Shown here: positions 4,162 through 48,323 of the stretch, piece by piece
Position numbering within the stretch: the stretch's first letter is position 1
How the letters are laid out: each line of letters begins with the position of its first letter
Origin: Rhizobiales bacterium GAS188
GTDB lineage: Bacteria; Pseudomonadota; Alphaproteobacteria; Rhizobiales; Beijerinckiaceae
Assembly: GCA_900104855.1 (NCBI GenBank)
Contig: FNSS01000001.1
Coordinates: forward strand, 2,852,001-2,916,000
DNA length: 64,000 nucleotides
Direction of reading: 5' to 3'
The notes under the pieces: generated by a model
What the model was told of the DNA's origin: nothing
Databases searched by the model: none
The model's input: only the letters and a program-made list of their open reading frames with translations
Program-made: the position numbers and the translations under genes

Positions 4162-4883
4162 TGATGGGCCTCGAGCGACAGGCCCATCAGCTTCTCCTGC
4201 AGGCCGCGATCGGCCACGAGCTCGGCCATCGAGCCGCGATGCACGATGCGGCCGTCATCCATGATGGCGACCTTGTCGCCGACCGCTTCGGCAGTGGCGA
4301 AATTCTGCTCGACCAGCAGGATGGTCGTGCCCGAGCGTTTCAATTCGGCGAGCGCCTCGGTCATCGTCTTGACCATCGAGGGCGAAAGCCCCTTGGAGGG
4401 CTCGTCGATCAGCACCAGCCGACGCTTCTCGATCATGGCTCTCGCGATCGACAGCATCTGCTTCTGCCCGCCCGAGAGATTGCCGGCCGGCAGCTCGTAG
4501 AAGGTTTTCAGCGGCGGAAACAAAGTCAGGACCCGCTCCAGTCGGTCCGGATCGATGGGGCCGCTGGCGGCCGCGAGCACCAGGTTCTCGCGCACCGACA
4601 AGGTGCCGAAAATGCCCATATTCTCGGGCACGTAGCCGATGCCGCGCCGCGCGATCACCGGCGTCGCCTCCTTCTCGATGGCGGCCCCGCCGAACAGGAT
4701 CGTGCCGGCTGAGGCGCGCCACAGGCCCATGATGGTGCGCATGGTGGTGGTCTTGCCGGCGCCGTTGCGGCCGAGCAGCACCGTCATCTCGCCCTCCGGC
4801 ACCTCGAGATCGACGCCCTGCAGGATATGGTAGCGGCCGATATGTGTGTGCACGCCGCCGAGCTGCAGGAGAGGGCGCGTCAC
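4158..4883 (-). CDS. livF: Branched-chain amino acid-type ABC transporter ATPase LivF
   Basis: This 241-residue ABC ATPase has Walker A GRNGAGKTTTMRTIMG, signature LSGGQKQMLSIARAM and Walker B LVLIDEPSKGLSP followed by the His-switch region LLVEQN. The short form without the C-terminal helical extension is typical of LivF/BraG, as opposed to LivG. It sits between livG and livH with four-base overlaps on both sides. Together with LivG it forms the heterodimeric cytoplasmic ATPase of the importer. Confidence 0.92.
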   Translation of the reverse strand: MTRPLLQLGGVHTHIGRYHILQGVDLEVPEGEMTVLLGRNGAGKTTTMRTIMGLWRASAGTILFGGAAIEKEATPVIARRGIGYVPENMGIFGTLSVRENLVLAAASGPIDPDRLERVLTLFPPLKTFYELPAGNLSGGQKQMLSIARAMIEKRRLVLIDEPSKGLSPSMVKTMTEALAELKRSGTTILLVEQNFATAEAVGDKVAIMDDGRIVHRGSMAELVADRGLQEKLMGLSLEAHQ

Positions 4884-5653
4884 CTCGTTCCTCCCGCCGC
4901 AACGGCCGCGACGCCGAGATAGGCTTCCTGGACTACGGCCGAGGCAATCACCTCCTTCGGCTCGCCATCGGCGACGAGGCGGCCCTGATGCAGCACGATG
5001 ATGCGGTCGGCGAGCGCCCGGATCACATCCATCTTGTGCTCGACCAGGAGGATGGTCTTCGTCGTATCGATCTTGAGGCTGGCGATCAGGTCGAGCACGG
5101 TCGGCACCTCATCGACGCTCATGCCGGCCGTGGGCTCGTCGAACATGAAGACGTCAGGCTCGAGCGCCACCAGCAGCGCCACCTCCAATTTGCGCTGGTC
5201 GCCATGCGACAGCACCGAGGCCGGCCGCTCGGCGAGGGCGCCGAGCTGCATGCGCGTCAGCACCGCATCGGCCGCATCGATCAGATCGCGTTGGGTCTCG
5301 GCGAGCGACAGGATATCGAAGCCGCGCCGCGCGCGTGCCTGCAGCACCATCCGCACATTCTCGCGCACCGTCAGGCTCGGGAACAGGTTGGTGAGCTGGA
5401 AGGCGCGGCCAAGCCCGCGTTTCGCGCGCTCGGCCGGCGGCAGATAGGAGATGTCCTCGCCCTTCAGGCTCACCGAGCCGGCGCTCAATCTGAGCTGTCC
5501 CGAGATCAGGTTGAAATAGGTGGTCTTGCCAGCCCCGTTCGGGCCGACGATAGCGGTCAGCGTGCCGCGCTCGAAGCCGCAGGAGACGCCGTCGACGGCG
5601 ACATGGCCGCCGAAGCGGATGGTCGCATCCCTGGTCTCGAGCACGGTCGACAT
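4880..5653 (-). CDS. livG: Branched-chain amino acid-type ABC transporter ATPase LivG
   Basis: This 257-residue ATPase has Walker A GPNGAGKTTYFNLISGQ, the LivG-specific SLKGEDISYLPPAERAKRGL and RAFQLTNLFPSLTVRENVRM segments, signature LSHGDQRKLEVALLVAL and Walker B DVFMFDEPTAGM. It is the first gene of the four-gene operon. No periplasmic binding protein gene lies upstream: the next 250 bases hold only a palindromic repeat, and then a DUF429 gene. The binding protein must therefore be encoded elsewhere or be shared with another system. Confidence 0.92.
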   Translation of the reverse strand: MSTVLETRDATIRFGGHVAVDGVSCGFERGTLTAIVGPNGAGKTTYFNLISGQLRLSAGSVSLKGEDISYLPPAERAKRGLGRAFQLTNLFPSLTVRENVRMVLQARARRGFDILSLAETQRDLIDAADAVLTRMQLGALAERPASVLSHGDQRKLEVALLVALEPDVFMFDEPTAGMSVDEVPTVLDLIASLKIDTTKTILLVEHKMDVIRALADRIIVLHQGRLVADGEPKEVIASAVVQEAYLGVAAVAAGGTR

Positions 5654-5813
5654 CGCGGTCGGGCGTTCCCTCTCATGGTGGCTACGTTATTCAACTATCT
5701 TCGAGGTTCATGACGGATCGCGCAACGACGATCACGCAAAATCCTTCGGAAGTTCGGCCCGTCGTCTTGGCCGTCAGGCGCGCTCTTCACCTCTCCCCGC
5801 CTGCGGGCTTCCT

Positions 5814-5901
5814 TGGGACCGCCGGCGTCTCGCCGGCCCTCGAGACCCGCGAGGCTGGCGCGCCGCTGGGAAGAAGGGCGACCGGGACGGTCGCGGTCCC
5901 A
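5814..5901. repeat. Dispersed palindrome-ended repeat, copy 1
   Basis: This is an 88-bp element beginning TGGGACCGCC and ending CGCGGTCCCA, with an internal GGCGTCTCGCC hairpin and a GGGCGACCGGGACGGTCGC segment. The same element recurs twice in tandem at 50721-50897, and a diverged form lies near 29061-29123. All copies are intergenic. This copy sits between livG and the DUF429 gene. Confidence 0.7.
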
Positions 5902-5910
5902 GGGAGCCGC

Positions 5911-6660
5911 TCACCCCCAGATCGCAACCGGCAAGCCATGTGCGTCGCGGCCGGGCGGCTCCGGATGGGGTTGCGCCCCGCCGTCGAGGATGCGCCGCGC
6001 GATGGCGAGCAGCGCCAGCGCATCGAGCAGGTCGTCGGTCGCGGCGCCGCGCGGAGGCTTGCCTTCCAGGATGCCGCCAGGCAGGCCGGCGGCGCGCAGG
6101 ATGTTCCGGCGTTCGCTCATGCCGTCCGGATTGGGGCGGCCCTTGAGCTTCTTCGGGTGCAGCAAGGGGCGCTCACCATTGAGCCGCCAGAAGGCGAGCT
6201 CCGGATGCGCCTCGAAGACACGCCCCGACCAGGGCGGATCGATGCCCTGTGAGTCGGAGCGCAGCAGCACGTCGATTTCCCGGATCTTGCGAAACAGCAT
6301 GAAGGCCTGTTTCGACACTTTGCGCGATGGCTCGGAGGTCGCGGCCGCGATGGCGCAGGCCGTGGCGTAATCTTGCGCCTCGACGGCACCGCGCGACGGG
6401 ATGGCGAAGACCGAGGAACGCCTGGCGCCGATCAGGCGGCGCACTGCCGCTTCCGGCCCGCGCCCGCCCTCGCCGATGCGGGCCGGCAGGCCGATCGGCA
6501 TGTCGACCGCGACCGCTGCGGGAGGATCGTGCCGGTCGAGGATGGTCGCAAACCCCGGATGGATGGCGATCTCGATCCGGCCCGGCGAGGCAAGCTGCTC
6601 TCTGGCCATGATCCAGCCGCCGCGGCAGCCATCGACGCCGGCGATCCAGCCGCTGCTCAT
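5911..6660 (-). CDS. DUF429 domain protein
   Basis: This 249-residue protein matches the DUF429 pattern: IAGVDGCRGGWIMA at the N-terminus, VAVDMPIGLP in the middle, RSSVFAIPSR, a FEAHPELAFWRLNG segment, and an ending rich in DDLLDALALLAIAR. The conserved Asp residues and general layout resemble an RNase H-like nuclease fold, but the biochemical role of the family is not established. The ATG at 6660 has a GAGGA element just upstream (about eight bases). The open frame continues farther back but overlaps ispA. It probably follows ispA in the same transcription unit, with a 16-base gap. Confidence 0.8.
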   Translation of the reverse strand: MSSGWIAGVDGCRGGWIMAREQLASPGRIEIAIHPGFATILDRHDPPAAVAVDMPIGLPARIGEGGRGPEAAVRRLIGARRSSVFAIPSRGAVEAQDYATACAIAAATSEPSRKVSKQAFMLFRKIREIDVLLRSDSQGIDPPWSGRVFEAHPELAFWRLNGERPLLHPKKLKGRPNPDGMSERRNILRAAGLPGGILEGKPPRGAATDDLLDALALLAIARRILDGGAQPHPEPPGRDAHGLPVAIWG

Positions 6661-41181: not shown

Positions 41182-42888
41182 ATGAACGTGCTGTGGCGCG
41201 GCTCCTCGGTGCAGCGGCTGCGGCTCGTCTCAGGCCTGGTGCTGTTCAGCTTCGCGCTCACGCATTTCCTGAACCATGCGGTGGGCCTCGTCAGCCTCGA
41301 TGCGATGATCGCGGTCGACCATTGGCGGGTCGCGATCATCCGCTCGGCGCCCGGCACCGCGGTCCTGCTCGCGGCGCTCCTCATCCATGTCGGGCTCGCC
41401 ATTTGGAAGCTCGCCTCGATCCGCAGCTGGCGGATGCCGCGCTGGCAGATCGTCCAGATCCTGTTCGGCTTCGCCATTCCGTTCCTGCTGGCGCCGCATC
41501 TGATCGGCACCCGTATCGCGGCCGCAGTCTTCGGCATCGACACCAGCTATCCCTATGTCCTGGCGCGCATCTGGCCAGCCATGATGCTTGATCAGACGGT
41601 CCTGCTCCTGATCGTCTGGGTGCATGGCTGCATCGGCCTGCATTTCTGGCTGCGGCTTGCTCCCGCCTATGACCGCCTGCGGCCGATCCTGCTCTGCATC
41701 GCCGTGCTGCTGCCGGCCGCGGCGCTGGCGGGCGCCATGATGCAGGCGCGCGCCCTCGCCGGCGATCTCACCGGCACGGCGGAGTTCGAGGCCCTTCGAT
41801 CGTCATTGCGCGGGCCGGGGCCGGAGGTCAACGCCCAGCTGCTCGACTGGCGCGAGCTCGCCCGGCTTGCTTTCTACCTGCCGCTCCTGGCCCTGCTGCT
41901 TGCCCTTCTGGCGGTGCCCTGGTGGCGCCGCCGCTCGGGCGGCGTCACCGTCGCCTATGTGGAAGGGCCGACGCTGCGCGCGCCTGGCGGCATGACGCTC
42001 CTCGAGATCAGCCGCAGCTTCGGCGTGCCGCATGTCTCGGTCTGCGGCGGCAGGGCGCGCTGCTCCACTTGCCGGGTGCGGGTGCTCGCCCATTCGACCG
42101 AGCTGCCCGCGCCGAACGAGGCCGAGGCGCGCACCTTGCGGGCCATCGGGGCGGGGCCGGATACGCGCCTTGCCTGCCAATGGCGTCCAGGCGGCGAGGT
42201 CCTCGTGCTGCGGCTGGTGCAGCCGCTCGCCGGCGCACAGGCCTCCTCCGAGCGCGCCGCCGAGGACCAGGGAGTGGACAGCGACGCCGCCGTGCTGTTC
42301 GTCGACATTCGCGGCTTCACGGCCTTGAGCGAGACGAAGCTCGCCTATGACGTCGTGCATATCCTGAACCGCTTCTTCGCGGCCGCCAACGGCGCCATTC
42401 AGGGGGCGGGAGGCCGGGTCGACAAGTTCATCGGGGACGGCTTGATGGCGCTGTTCGTCGATCCGCGCGGCATCGCCTTTGCCTGCCGCGCCGCAGTCGC
42501 TGCTGCCACGGCCATCCGGCACGAGCTCGCCAGGGTCAATCGCGACCTCGCGGCCGAGCTGAAGGAACCCTTGCGGATCGCCATGGGCCTGCATGCCGGC
42601 CGCCTCGTCGTCGGGCGGATCGGCGCGGGGCTCGCCGCCGCGAGGACGGTGATCGGACCCGTCGTCAATGTGGCGAGCCGGCTCGAGACGCTGGCCAAAC
42701 AGCATGATGCCGAGCTCGCGCTGTCGCGGGCAACCGCGGACTGGGCCGCCCTCGACATCTCGCAATTGCAGGTGACGCGCGAAGATGTGCGCGGCCTCGA
42801 CCGCGCCATCGAGGTGGTGCTGATCTTCCGGCTGGAGGTCCTCGATGCCGCGGTCGGCGCCGCTCCAGCCGAACCTCAGCCGCTATAG
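41182..42888 (+). CDS. Membrane / [2Fe-2S] ferredoxin / class III nucleotidyl cyclase fusion
   Basis: This 568-residue protein has three parts. Residues 1-255 hold about six hydrophobic helices with intramembrane histidines (FALTHFLNHAVGL, LLIHVGLAIWKL, HGCIGLHFWL), a pattern like the haem-b anchor of fumarate reductase/succinate dehydrogenase. Residues about 260-345 form a plant-type [2Fe-2S] domain with Cys288, Cys294, Cys297 and Cys332 (C-x5-C-x2-C-x34-C). Residues about 368-550 form a class III cyclase with metal residues Asp375 and Asp419 and Lys415. The site that normally reads Gly-Asp-x-Val-Asn reads Gly-Pro-Val-Val-Asn (Pro493). It is likely a redox-responsive cyclase. The 3' end overlaps the convergent FAH gene by 13 bases. 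Confidence 0.85.
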   Translation: MNVLWRGSSVQRLRLVSGLVLFSFALTHFLNHAVGLVSLDAMIAVDHWRVAIIRSAPGTAVLLAALLIHVGLAIWKLASIRSWRMPRWQIVQILFGFAIPFLLAPHLIGTRIAAAVFGIDTSYPYVLARIWPAMMLDQTVLLLIVWVHGCIGLHFWLRLAPAYDRLRPILLCIAVLLPAAALAGAMMQARALAGDLTGTAEFEALRSSLRGPGPEVNAQLLDWRELARLAFYLPLLALLLALLAVPWWRRRSGGVTVAYVEGPTLRAPGGMTLLEISRSFGVPHVSVCGGRARCSTCRVRVLAHSTELPAPNEAEARTLRAIGAGPDTRLACQWRPGGEVLVLRLVQPLAGAQASSERAAEDQGVDSDAAVLFVDIRGFTALSETKLAYDVVHILNRFFAAANGAIQGAGGRVDKFIGDGLMALFVDPRGIAFACRAAVAAATAIRHELARVNRDLAAELKEPLRIAMGLHAGRLVVGRIGAGLAAARTVIGPVVNVASRLETLAKQHDAELALSRATADWAALDISQLQVTREDVRGLDRAIEVVLIFRLEVLDAAVGAAPAEPQPL

Positions 42889-45735: not shown

Positions 45736-48171
45736 TCAGGCCCTGACCTTCACATAAGTCCCCGGCGCATCGGCGAGCGCTGCGAGCTTGCCGCCGCCGG
45801 GCTCGCGGGCCTTGACGCGTTCGGGGGCCTGCTGCTCGATCCAGGCAGCCCAGTCCGGCCACCATGAGCCCTTATGCTCGGTGGCGCTCTGCAGCCAGTC
45901 CTGGAAGGCTCCGGCTACCGGGCCACCCGTCCAATATTGATATTTCTGCTTGGCCGGCGGGTTGACGACGCCCGCGATATGCCCCGAGCCCGCCATCACG
46001 TAGCGCACTTCGCCGCCGAAGCAGCGCGAACCCTCGAAGGCCGAGATCGCCGGCGCGATATGGTCCTCCTTGGCGGCAAGGTTGTAGATCGGGATGGTGA
46101 CCTTGCGGAGATCGATCGAGACGCCGTCGATCCGCATGCGGCCTTGCGAGAGATTGTTCTCGAGGTAGCAATTGCGCAGGTAGAACGAGTGATTCGCGGC
46201 CGGCATCCGGGTCGAATCCGAATTCCAGTACAAGAGGTCGAAGGGCAAGGGAGCCCGGCCCTTGAGATAGACGTCGACGACATAACGCCAGATGAGATCG
46301 TTGGGGCGCAGCATGTTGAAGGCGGTCGCCATCAGCCTGCCGTCGAGGTAACCGCGCGTCTTCATCTCCTCTTCGACGGCACGCACCTGCGCCTCGTCGA
46401 CGAAAACCTGCAGGTCGCCCGCATGCTTGAAGTCGACCTGGGTGGTGAACAGCGTGGCGCTGGCGATCCGGTGGTCGCGCTTCGTCGCCATATAGCCCAA
46501 CGCCGTCGAGAGCAGGGTGCCGCCGACGCAATAGCCGATGGCGGTCACTTCGGTCTCGCCGGTCGCGGCTCGCATCGCCTCGAGGGCCGCGAAGATGCCG
46601 TCCTTCATATAGGCGTCGAAGCCCTTATCGGCGTGACGCCCATCCGGATTGACCCAGGAAACGACGAACACCGTCAATCCTTGCGCCACGGCCCAGCGGA
46701 TGAAGGATTTCTCGGGGTTCAGGTCGAGGATATAGAATTTGTTGATCCAGGGCGGCACGATCAGCAAGGGCCGGCGCAACACGGTCTCGGTCGTCGGCGC
46801 ATATTGGATGAGCTCGATGAGCTCGTTGCGAAACACCACCTTGCCGGGCGTCGTGGCGAGATTGACGCCGACCTCGAAGGTCGTGACGTCGGTCTGGCGC
46901 AGCCTCAGCTCGCCGCCGCCCGCTTCGACATCCTCGGCGAACATCTGCGCGCCGCGCGCCAGATTGGCGCCGTTCTGCTTGATCGTGGCACGGATGATCT
47001 CGGGGTTCAGCACCGGGAAGTTGGAGGGCGCGAGCGCACCTGCCAATTGGCGCACGTAGAATTCGGCCTTGTGGCGCGTATGGTCGTCGAGCCCGTCGGC
47101 CTCCTTCACCATGTCCTGCGCCCATTTGGCAGCGTGCACATAGGATTGGCGCAGGAAATCGAAGAAGGGATTCTCGGTCCAGGCCGGATCCCTGAAGCGC
47201 TGATCGCGCTGGTCGGGCGGCTGGGTCGGCGGCACGTCCTCGCCCTTGAAGCGACGCAGCGCATCGGCCCATAGATCGATGAGGCCGCCTGTCAGGCGCG
47301 CCTGCGCCTGCACGGCACGCTGCGGCTCCGCCAGCCAGCGCTCGGCGACCAGCCCGAGAGTGCGCGCGGCCTCGGCGATTTCGGCGCTCGCGAGGCTCGA
47401 TTGGCCGCCCGCGAGCTGCGGCGTCAGATAAGCGTTGGAGGCGCGCGTCGCTTCATCGGCGAAACGGCCGAGATTGGCGGCAAGCTCTTCGAAATCAGGC
47501 GCCGACGGCCATTGATCCGCCTTGCCCGTGCCTTCGGCGGCCGGTTGTGGCGCAGGGTCGGGAGGCGCGCCGGCCGCTGCAGTCGTTTTGGCCCTGAGCT
47601 TGGCGGCTGGCTCGGCGGCGCCCGGCGCCGGCGTCGGCGAAACCTGGTCGGTTCGGCGAGGCATCTCGCCGTCGCGCCGGGACGCCGCCGCAGGCTTGGC
47701 ATTGGCATGTTTCGCCTTGGCCGGCGCTTGCTTTGCTATGTTCTTGGCCGAGGCTTTGACCGGAGCCCTGACGGCCGTGGTTTCGGCGGTCGAAGCTTTG
47801 GCAACCGAAGTCTTGGTACCAACCGAAGTCTTGCTGGCAACCGAAGTCTTGCTGGCAACCGAAGTCTTGCTGGCAACCGAAGTCTTGCTGGCAACCGAAG
47901 TCTTGCTGGCAACCGAAGTCTTGCTGGCAACGGAAGCCTTGCTACCTGGTGTCTTGATGATAGCGCTCTTCGTGATAGCGCTTTTGGCGGTCACGGGCGT
48001 GGCCTTCGCGGCGGCTTGCGGCAAAGGCTTGGCCGGTTTCGCCGTATCGGGCGCGAGAGCCGCGGCCTTCATCTTGGGCAGGCCGGCCGCGAAGGCGGAA
48101 CGGATCGCCTGGTCCGCCCGGGATGTCAGCCGGGAGGTGTCCCGGCCGCTTTGTCCTGCTCTCTTGCCCAT
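45736..48171 (-). CDS. phaC: Class I poly(3-hydroxyalkanoate) synthase with histone-like N-terminal extension
   Basis: This 811-residue protein has a PhaC catalytic domain from about residue 220 (DPAWTENPFFDFLRQSY) with lipase-like box Gly-Tyr-Cys-Val-Gly-Gly (Cys548), Asp in YNLAAKEDHIAP and His in AGSGHIAGVVN. Usual class I synthases are about 590 residues. The extra 215 N-terminal residues are Lys/Ala/Pro/Ser/Thr-rich, basic and low-complexity, and contain six exact SVASKT hexapeptides plus degenerate units (residues about 76-123). The tail resembles histone-H1-like or PhaF-type DNA-binding tails. It polymerises hydroxyacyl-CoA into storage granules. The ATG at 48171 is used; a TTG at 48195 is an alternative. 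Confidence 0.93.
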   Translation of the reverse strand: MGKRAGQSGRDTSRLTSRADQAIRSAFAAGLPKMKAAALAPDTAKPAKPLPQAAAKATPVTAKSAITKSAIIKTPGSKASVASKTSVASKTSVASKTSVASKTSVASKTSVASKTSVGTKTSVAKASTAETTAVRAPVKASAKNIAKQAPAKAKHANAKPAAASRRDGEMPRRTDQVSPTPAPGAAEPAAKLRAKTTAAAGAPPDPAPQPAAEGTGKADQWPSAPDFEELAANLGRFADEATRASNAYLTPQLAGGQSSLASAEIAEAARTLGLVAERWLAEPQRAVQAQARLTGGLIDLWADALRRFKGEDVPPTQPPDQRDQRFRDPAWTENPFFDFLRQSYVHAAKWAQDMVKEADGLDDHTRHKAEFYVRQLAGALAPSNFPVLNPEIIRATIKQNGANLARGAQMFAEDVEAGGGELRLRQTDVTTFEVGVNLATTPGKVVFRNELIELIQYAPTTETVLRRPLLIVPPWINKFYILDLNPEKSFIRWAVAQGLTVFVVSWVNPDGRHADKGFDAYMKDGIFAALEAMRAATGETEVTAIGYCVGGTLLSTALGYMATKRDHRIASATLFTTQVDFKHAGDLQVFVDEAQVRAVEEEMKTRGYLDGRLMATAFNMLRPNDLIWRYVVDVYLKGRAPLPFDLLYWNSDSTRMPAANHSFYLRNCYLENNLSQGRMRIDGVSIDLRKVTIPIYNLAAKEDHIAPAISAFEGSRCFGGEVRYVMAGSGHIAGVVNPPAKQKYQYWTGGPVAGAFQDWLQSATEHKGSWWPDWAAWIEQQAPERVKAREPGGGKLAALADAPGTYVKVRA
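47803..47946 (-). repeat. 18-bp tandem repeat inside phaC
   Basis: Six identical copies of AACCGAAGTCTTGCTGGC run from 47821 to 47928, flanked by degenerate units at 47803-47820 and 47929-47946. Each unit is in frame and encodes one hexapeptide SVASKT. Exact identity at DNA level, including third positions, indicates recent expansion by slippage or unequal crossing-over. Confidence 0.95.
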
Positions 48172-48323
48172 GATGCGCTCGGCACCCTCCCCCAACCTGC
48201 CGGGCCGCGCGGCCCTGTTTGGGTCACATTAACCCCTCATGCACGATAACGAAACCATCGCGGACGAAACCCATCGCAGAAGCCATGGCGACTTGCCGCA
48301 ACCCAAAACGCTGAGGCAGTTTG

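Follow-up and report, generated by a model that had tools for sequence, protein, structure and literature searches.

We found that the PHA synthase gene phaC of the window (the whole stretch of 64,000 nucleotides analysed here) encodes a class I enzyme preceded by a long, basic N-terminal tail. The comparisons below indicate that the tailed PhaC is a real, fast-evolving and lineage-restricted variant of a known enzyme. It is plausible that the synthase itself would tether its granule to the nucleoid. The features to which we refer are the following:

45736..48171, minus strand: phaC, class I PHA synthase with N-terminal tail, 811 aa (ORF, Pfam and NCBIfam matches)
45739..47496, minus strand: PhaC proper, residues 226-811 (domain models and Cys548, Asp703, His731)
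47497..48171, minus strand: basic low-complexity N-terminal tail, residues 1-225, net charge +27 (composition)
47827..47934, minus strand: six exact SVASKT units, 18-bp tandem repeat (Tandem Repeats Finder array 47799-47943)
48207..48255, minus strand: 49-bp leader block before the start codon (47 of 49 bases identical in congener locus L013 and 46 of 49 in L016)

Catalytic core and make-up of the tail

The 811-residue frame (window:48171-45739, minus strand) was free of stop codons on translation, with an ATG at 48171 and the stop codon at 45736-45738. The class I synthase model TIGR01838 matched residues 281-809 in the NCBIfam scan with 760.9 bits (cut-off 622.65), and the PhaC_N Pfam match covered residues 322-494. 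With this score and with Cys548 in the lipase-like box GYCVGG, the complete PhaC described in the earlier note is confirmed. We found Cys548, Asp703 and His731, which we take to be the catalytic Cys, Asp and His of PhaC, to be nearly invariant (at least 90%) in an alignment of 41 sequences. Both the curated-model score and these three residues assign the protein to class I, and the intact catalytic residues suggest a working enzyme. Elsewhere in the window (41182-42888), a single ORF combined 2Fe-2S ferredoxin and adenylate/guanylate cyclase domains after a hydrophobic N-terminal part.

The tail spans about 225 residues up to the conserved block. Ala, Lys, Pro, Ser and Thr are abundant in it and hydrophobic residues scarce, and 27 Lys and 11 Arg face 11 acidic residues (net +27). 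Residues 1-215 contain 26 Lys, 11 Arg, 6 Asp, 4 Glu, 55 Ala and 20 Pro (pI 11.2); the pI of residues 226-811 is 6.0. The extra stretch reported in the earlier note is real, basic and Lys/Ala/Pro-rich as described there, but its length is nearer 225 than the 215 residues proposed. Its likening to histone H1 is weak on several points: residues 1-225 contained AKP three times and AAKP not once, no histone-like model was found among the four Pfam matches of the protein up to E 1, and no phasin model (PF05597 included) matched it up to E 1 in Pfam or NCBIfam. The label "histone H1-like" is thus loose for this sequence. The NCBIfam scan up to E 1 also listed no PhaM family model for the protein. By its composition, the tail would be disordered.

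Start codon, leader and congeneric orthologues

We searched three congeneric genomes (G001, G002 and G003) and recovered an orthologue in two of them. The orthologue of G001 (L013) is a fragment that reaches query residue 614 and stops at a contig edge, and that of G002 is apparently split across two contigs (L016, query residues 203-545; L014, query residues 505-811), while G003 gave no PhaC match at E 1e-100. In the three species, including that of the window, the same ATG follows the 49-bp leader block and the frame is open into the core. The flanks of the block diverge among them, and the block is a probable promoter or leader, with no motif assigned to it. Translation of the tail is thus very probable, given that all three species have retained the start codon, the leader block and the open frame. 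The conserved start also speaks against an internal start near residue 215, which the earlier note had named as a possible refutation. A frameshift or an assembly artefact as its origin was rejected, since both congeners have the same start and an open frame.

The tail up to the conserved block measured 225 aa in the window, 136 aa in L013 and 127 aa in L016, with net charges of +27, +22 and +12, respectively. The window tail aligned poorly with those of the congeners (21–27% identity). The tails of G001 and G002 were 49% identical to each other, with dN 0.45, dS 1.45 and a dN/dS of about 0.3 (Nei-Gojobori; the tail alignment is uncertain), and their core residues 321-545 were 87% identical, with dN 0.07. 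This pattern indicates a loose constraint on the tail at the protein level, which argues against an internal start. It is indeed very improbable that the tail is largely untranslated, with a fortuitous upstream frame and a true start further inside (e.g. at Met170): the first ATG of the window has no SD-like match under our simple test, as such a start would allow, but Met34 and Met170 have none either, the start codons of the congeners have a 4-base one, and all three species share the place of the ATG, the leader sequence and an uninterrupted frame. The third-position GC also speaks for translation, with 0.78 in residues 1-76 and 0.74 in residues 126-215, compared with 0.63 in the repeat and 0.85 in the core.

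The SVASKT repeat

The six exact SVASKT repeats of the earlier note were present in tandem, exactly six copies at residues 80-115, followed by SVGTKT. Tandem Repeats Finder reported an 18-bp period with 8.1 copies at 47799-47943. When the tail was shuffled 20,000 times, none of the shuffles had any hexapeptide three times in tandem, so the array is not a product of chance. At the DNA level, 5 out of the 6 units were identical and the sixth differed by one silent base, and the repeat was absent from both congeners that carry the orthologue (L013 and L016), being seen only in the species of the window; this points to a recent local expansion of the DNA. We therefore rejected the repeats as a conserved functional motif, given their absence from both congeners, and the array is best read as a recent tandem expansion that lengthened the tail, as mutation rather than conserved function. 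The tail is basic with or without the array.

Distribution of basic tails among related synthases

A scan of GTDB genome contigs yielded 158 stretches with a relative. Among the best 80 of these 158 (L018-L097), the nearest named relatives by PhaC belonged to Methylocapsa and to Beijerinckiaceae MAGs, and a Rhodoplanes MAG was also close. Other genomes of the family contained an orthologue in 11 out of 12 cases, and G009 (78% complete) was without a match. We compared 42 rows, comprising 26 of the best 80 loci, the window, two congeners, two paralogues of the own genome and the 11 orthologues that represent other genera in the family. Not included were the fragments L014 and L112, the divergent sequences L110 and L111, and the remaining 54 public loci, most of them from sphingomonads and Betaproteobacteria. 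Start codons in this set were picked by SD-like match or by eye, and a later ATG than the first was taken for L022, L027, L033, L103 and L108. We called a tail long when at least 60 residues preceded the conserved block, and basic when it carried at least +0.08 charge per residue, a cut-off that was chosen after seeing the data.

Long tails were present in 14 of the 42 rows, and 10 of these 14 were basic: the window, L013, L016, L018 (Methylocapsa), L020-L022 (Beijerinckiaceae MAGs), L105, L106 and L036 (Euryhalocaulis). Two tails fell just under the charge cut-off (L103, +5 over 63 aa; L109, +11 over 161 aa), and the long tails of Lichenibacterium (L023 and L025) had net charges of -1 and 0. 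In 7 out of the 11 other genera sampled here (L099-L102, L104, L107 and L108), fewer than 60 residues preceded the block, which shows that members of this family can have a PhaC without the tail. For example, the tail-less orthologues L099 and L100 were 65% and 64% identical to the PhaC of the window (over query residues 220-811 and 214-811, respectively), but had only 27 and 15 residues before the block. The earlier note had left it to be checked whether the tail is conserved or random, and would have counted its absence or frameshifting in close relatives against it. Like-charged tails were kept on the orthologues of two of the three congeners searched and on some Beijerinckiaceae relatives, so a frameshift does not account for the tail. 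The hexapeptide repeat was found only in this species, and the stretch before the block was short in those seven genera.

With a plain first-ATG rule applied to 98 rows, 26 had at least 60 residues before the block and 11 exceeded the charge cut-off, namely the same ten and L031. The extension of L031 (226 aa, 46 Arg, 2 Lys) is Arg-rich and was taken by eye as an overread, as were the Arg-rich extensions that this rule gave for Sphingomonas (L055, L058, L065, L076 and L087) and Roseomonas (L083), six rows that are not part of the tree. In L102, L104 and L106, the similarity to the tailed PhaC extended beyond the open frame on its upstream side, across one, four and one stop codons, respectively, which may represent decayed tails or low-complexity similarity.

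The genus of the window formed one clade in the core tree (support 100/100). The remaining long tails of this tree region, both basic and neutral, fell in another clade, which comprises 11 rows and has a support of 100/99. At least three changes on the tree are needed for long tails and four for basic tails. Euryhalocaulis L036 was placed far from the clade of the window; its PhaC (Maricaulaceae; 4506-6626) has an AKKPAKKP-type N-terminal tail with +19 over 119 aa, which is nearer to the PhaF/H1 pattern than the tail of the window. The simplest reading would be that a tail was gained once in the family and shortened once, and that Euryhalocaulis gained its own independently, with repeated loss as the alternative. 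As 10 out of the 42 rows combined at least 60 residues with at least +0.08 charge per residue, it seems to be charge, not sequence, that is kept among the tails.

Basic tracts elsewhere in the genome

We scanned 4,745 stop-to-stop ORFs (minimum length 120 aa, with those in wrong frames counted) for Lys-rich basic stretches of 100 residues. The sample of 1.264 Mb consisted of the window and 60 other stretches of its own genome, about 14% of 9.09 Mb. Five of the 4,745 ORFs contained such a stretch and the PhaC tail was the strongest, with +19 per 100 aa (next +11). An IalB-like protein (L162:18754-19431; match below the curated cut-off) carried a similar SKTKPAAASSAKASAAKTTPAK Lys/Ala/Pro tract after an apparent signal peptide; thus, make-up alone does not show DNA binding. 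We also observed a stretch of about 50 Lys/Arg/Ala-rich residues at the N-terminus of a TacA1-like antitoxin (L121, 8830-9228; domain at residues 53-126). A search of the own genome with tail residues 1-220 (E <=0.01) recovered only the tail itself, with 150 of the 430 first-look candidates scored. A crude gene-based background scan, which flagged 93 out of 1,118 called genes, many of them apparently Arg-rich wrong-frame ORFs, was non-discriminating and was replaced by the Lys-rich scan.

Other granule machinery

The genome encodes three PhaC proteins, and the two others are tail-less, with 10 and 17 residues before the block. A second, tail-less PhaC lies within about 1 kb of a phasin gene (L001/L005; 550-kb contig C2, approximately 473–476 kb). 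We identified eight Phasin_2 proteins, six of them near-alike, spread over two contigs; all eight stop shortly after the domain, and by eye none has a basic tail or an added domain. The suggestion of the earlier note that the tail may remove the need for a separate phasin was not borne out by these eight proteins, even though none resembles a tailed phasin, and we rejected the strong form of it, in which the tail replaces phasins. The PF05597 phasin had no match in the own genome (2 of the 14 control genomes matched, one of them over the cut-off). PhaM had no match in the own genome, but none of the 14 control genomes matched either, so this absence carries no weight. A separate tether was not found among the Phasin_2 proteins or in the PF05597 search of the own genome.

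Possible roles of the tail

Our best explanation, which we favour tentatively, is a disordered basic tail on the granule-surface synthase whose loose electrostatic contact with nucleic acid keeps the synthase and the nascent granule on the nucleoid. The fast-evolving, positively charged tail, disordered by its make-up, would extend the N-terminus of the PHA synthase and project from the granule surface, where the synthase is seated. There it would make non-specific contacts with nucleic acid, and the synthase and nascent granule would thereby start and stay on the nucleoid. The sequences show the gene, the charge, the conserved start and the recurrence of basic tails of unlike sequence, from which we infer enzyme activity, disorder, exposure at the surface, contact with DNA and any influence on where granules lie or how they segregate. 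Nucleoid contact is favoured by the intact catalytic residues, the conserved start, the charge kept across unlike tails, the outlier tract in the sampled genome, the lack of a separate tether among the proteins searched and the analogy with PhaF and PhaM, and is weakened by the tail-less state of 7 out of 11 genera, the neutral Lichenibacterium tails, the lack of a histone or phasin match, the IalB-like tract and the tail-less own paralogues. We also consider it possible, if rather doubtful, that in the Beijerinckiaceae clade and separately in Euryhalocaulis the synthase acts as its own nucleoid tether. It would then be a granule factory that positions itself, a single protein making the polymer and keeping it on the chromosome, with selection on charge and not on sequence.

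The tail might instead be a neutral or near-neutral disordered extension that serves as a spacer or aids solubility and has no specific ligand. Its length and sequence would then drift, and in this species it would have undergone a minisatellite-like expansion. We regard this reading as a serious rival, as the SVASKT array is nearly pure DNA repetition, the window tail aligns poorly with its congeners, and tails in the family are long but neutral in Lichenibacterium and short in most other genera. Against simple drift, positive charge was kept in all three congeneric rows and in 10 of the 14 long tails despite the change in sequence, the congener tails showed a dN/dS of about 0.3 (with the uncertain alignment), and the tail is an outlier in the sampled part of the genome. 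A less likely but still serious rival is that the ligand of the tail is a different polyanion or an acidic protein (polyphosphate, RNA or ribosomes, acidic phasins), or that the tail promotes condensation of synthase molecules as granules begin to form. The recurring traits, charge and low hydrophobicity, would suit any polyanion, and the H1-like protein AlgP is described as spacing polyphosphate granules (PMC13052382), but the PHB tethers reviewed in the same source, PhaM, PhaF and PhaH, bind DNA.

If the tail binds DNA, as in the nucleoid reading that we favour, the synthase could position the granules that it makes with no need of PhaM, PhaF or PhaH. This would account for granule inheritance in lineages without a recognised tether and would offer a one-gene handle on granule number and position for making bioplastics. 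Because close relatives differ in whether they carry the tail, the tethering question lends itself to a direct test.

Comparison with known systems

The granule tethers named in the cited passages are PhaM, PhaF and PhaH (PMC13052382; for PhaM also PMC3556143), and the non-specific DNA binding of PhaF and PhaM is attributed there to histone-like domains (PMC13052382, PMC5658603). PhaF of Pseudomonas putida has, like the PhaC of the window, a basic repeat-bearing tail on a granule-surface protein, and it binds DNA non-specifically through this histone-like AAKP-repeat tail; its DNA binding and disorder are experimentally shown (PMC5658603, PMC3574117). PhaF is, however, a phasin whose tail is C-terminal and consists of eight AAKP-like repeats (PMC5658603, PMC3574117), whereas the window encodes a synthase with an N-terminal tail bearing SVASKT, with neither a PF05597 match up to E 1 nor AAKP in residues 1-225. 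PhaM of Ralstonia eutropha is shown to link the synthase and the granule to the nucleoid (PMC3556143), a role only proposed for the PhaC of the window; it is a separate protein that binds PhaC1 (PMC3556143), and the window PhaC matched no PhaM model. PhaH of Caulobacter crescentus is a granule-DNA tether in an alphaproteobacterium, as proposed for the window PhaC, but it is a phasin with a helix-hairpin-helix domain rather than a synthase with a basic tail (PMC13052382). PHB inclusions also display foreign proteins fused to PhaC, the cited passage not giving the fusion end (PMC5700737).

We found no paper on an N-terminal PhaC tail of this kind in the literature searched, which leaves most subscription journals outside it and is no proof of absence. 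The closest system is PhaC2 of Cobetia, which like the window PhaC is a class I synthase with a long, basic and mostly unordered extension (pI 10.34 in MC34; PMC8686332, 2021). The window protein likewise combines a class I PhaC with a basic extension of more than 100 aa (225 aa, +27, pI about 11). The Cobetia extension is C-terminal (380 aa in MC34; PMC8686332), while in the window it is N-terminal and the class I model reaches residue 809 of 811, leaving no C-terminal extension. The Cobetia proteins have one to five AAKP motifs in four sequences and HC2-domain hits (PMC8686332), neither of which is found in the window tail. The authors propose DNA binding by the extension and, more speculatively, an anchor to the nucleoid that would stand in for PhaM (PMC8686332); the idea of nucleoid tethering borne by the synthase was thus already published in 2021 for the oppositely placed, C-terminal tail of Cobetia PhaC2.
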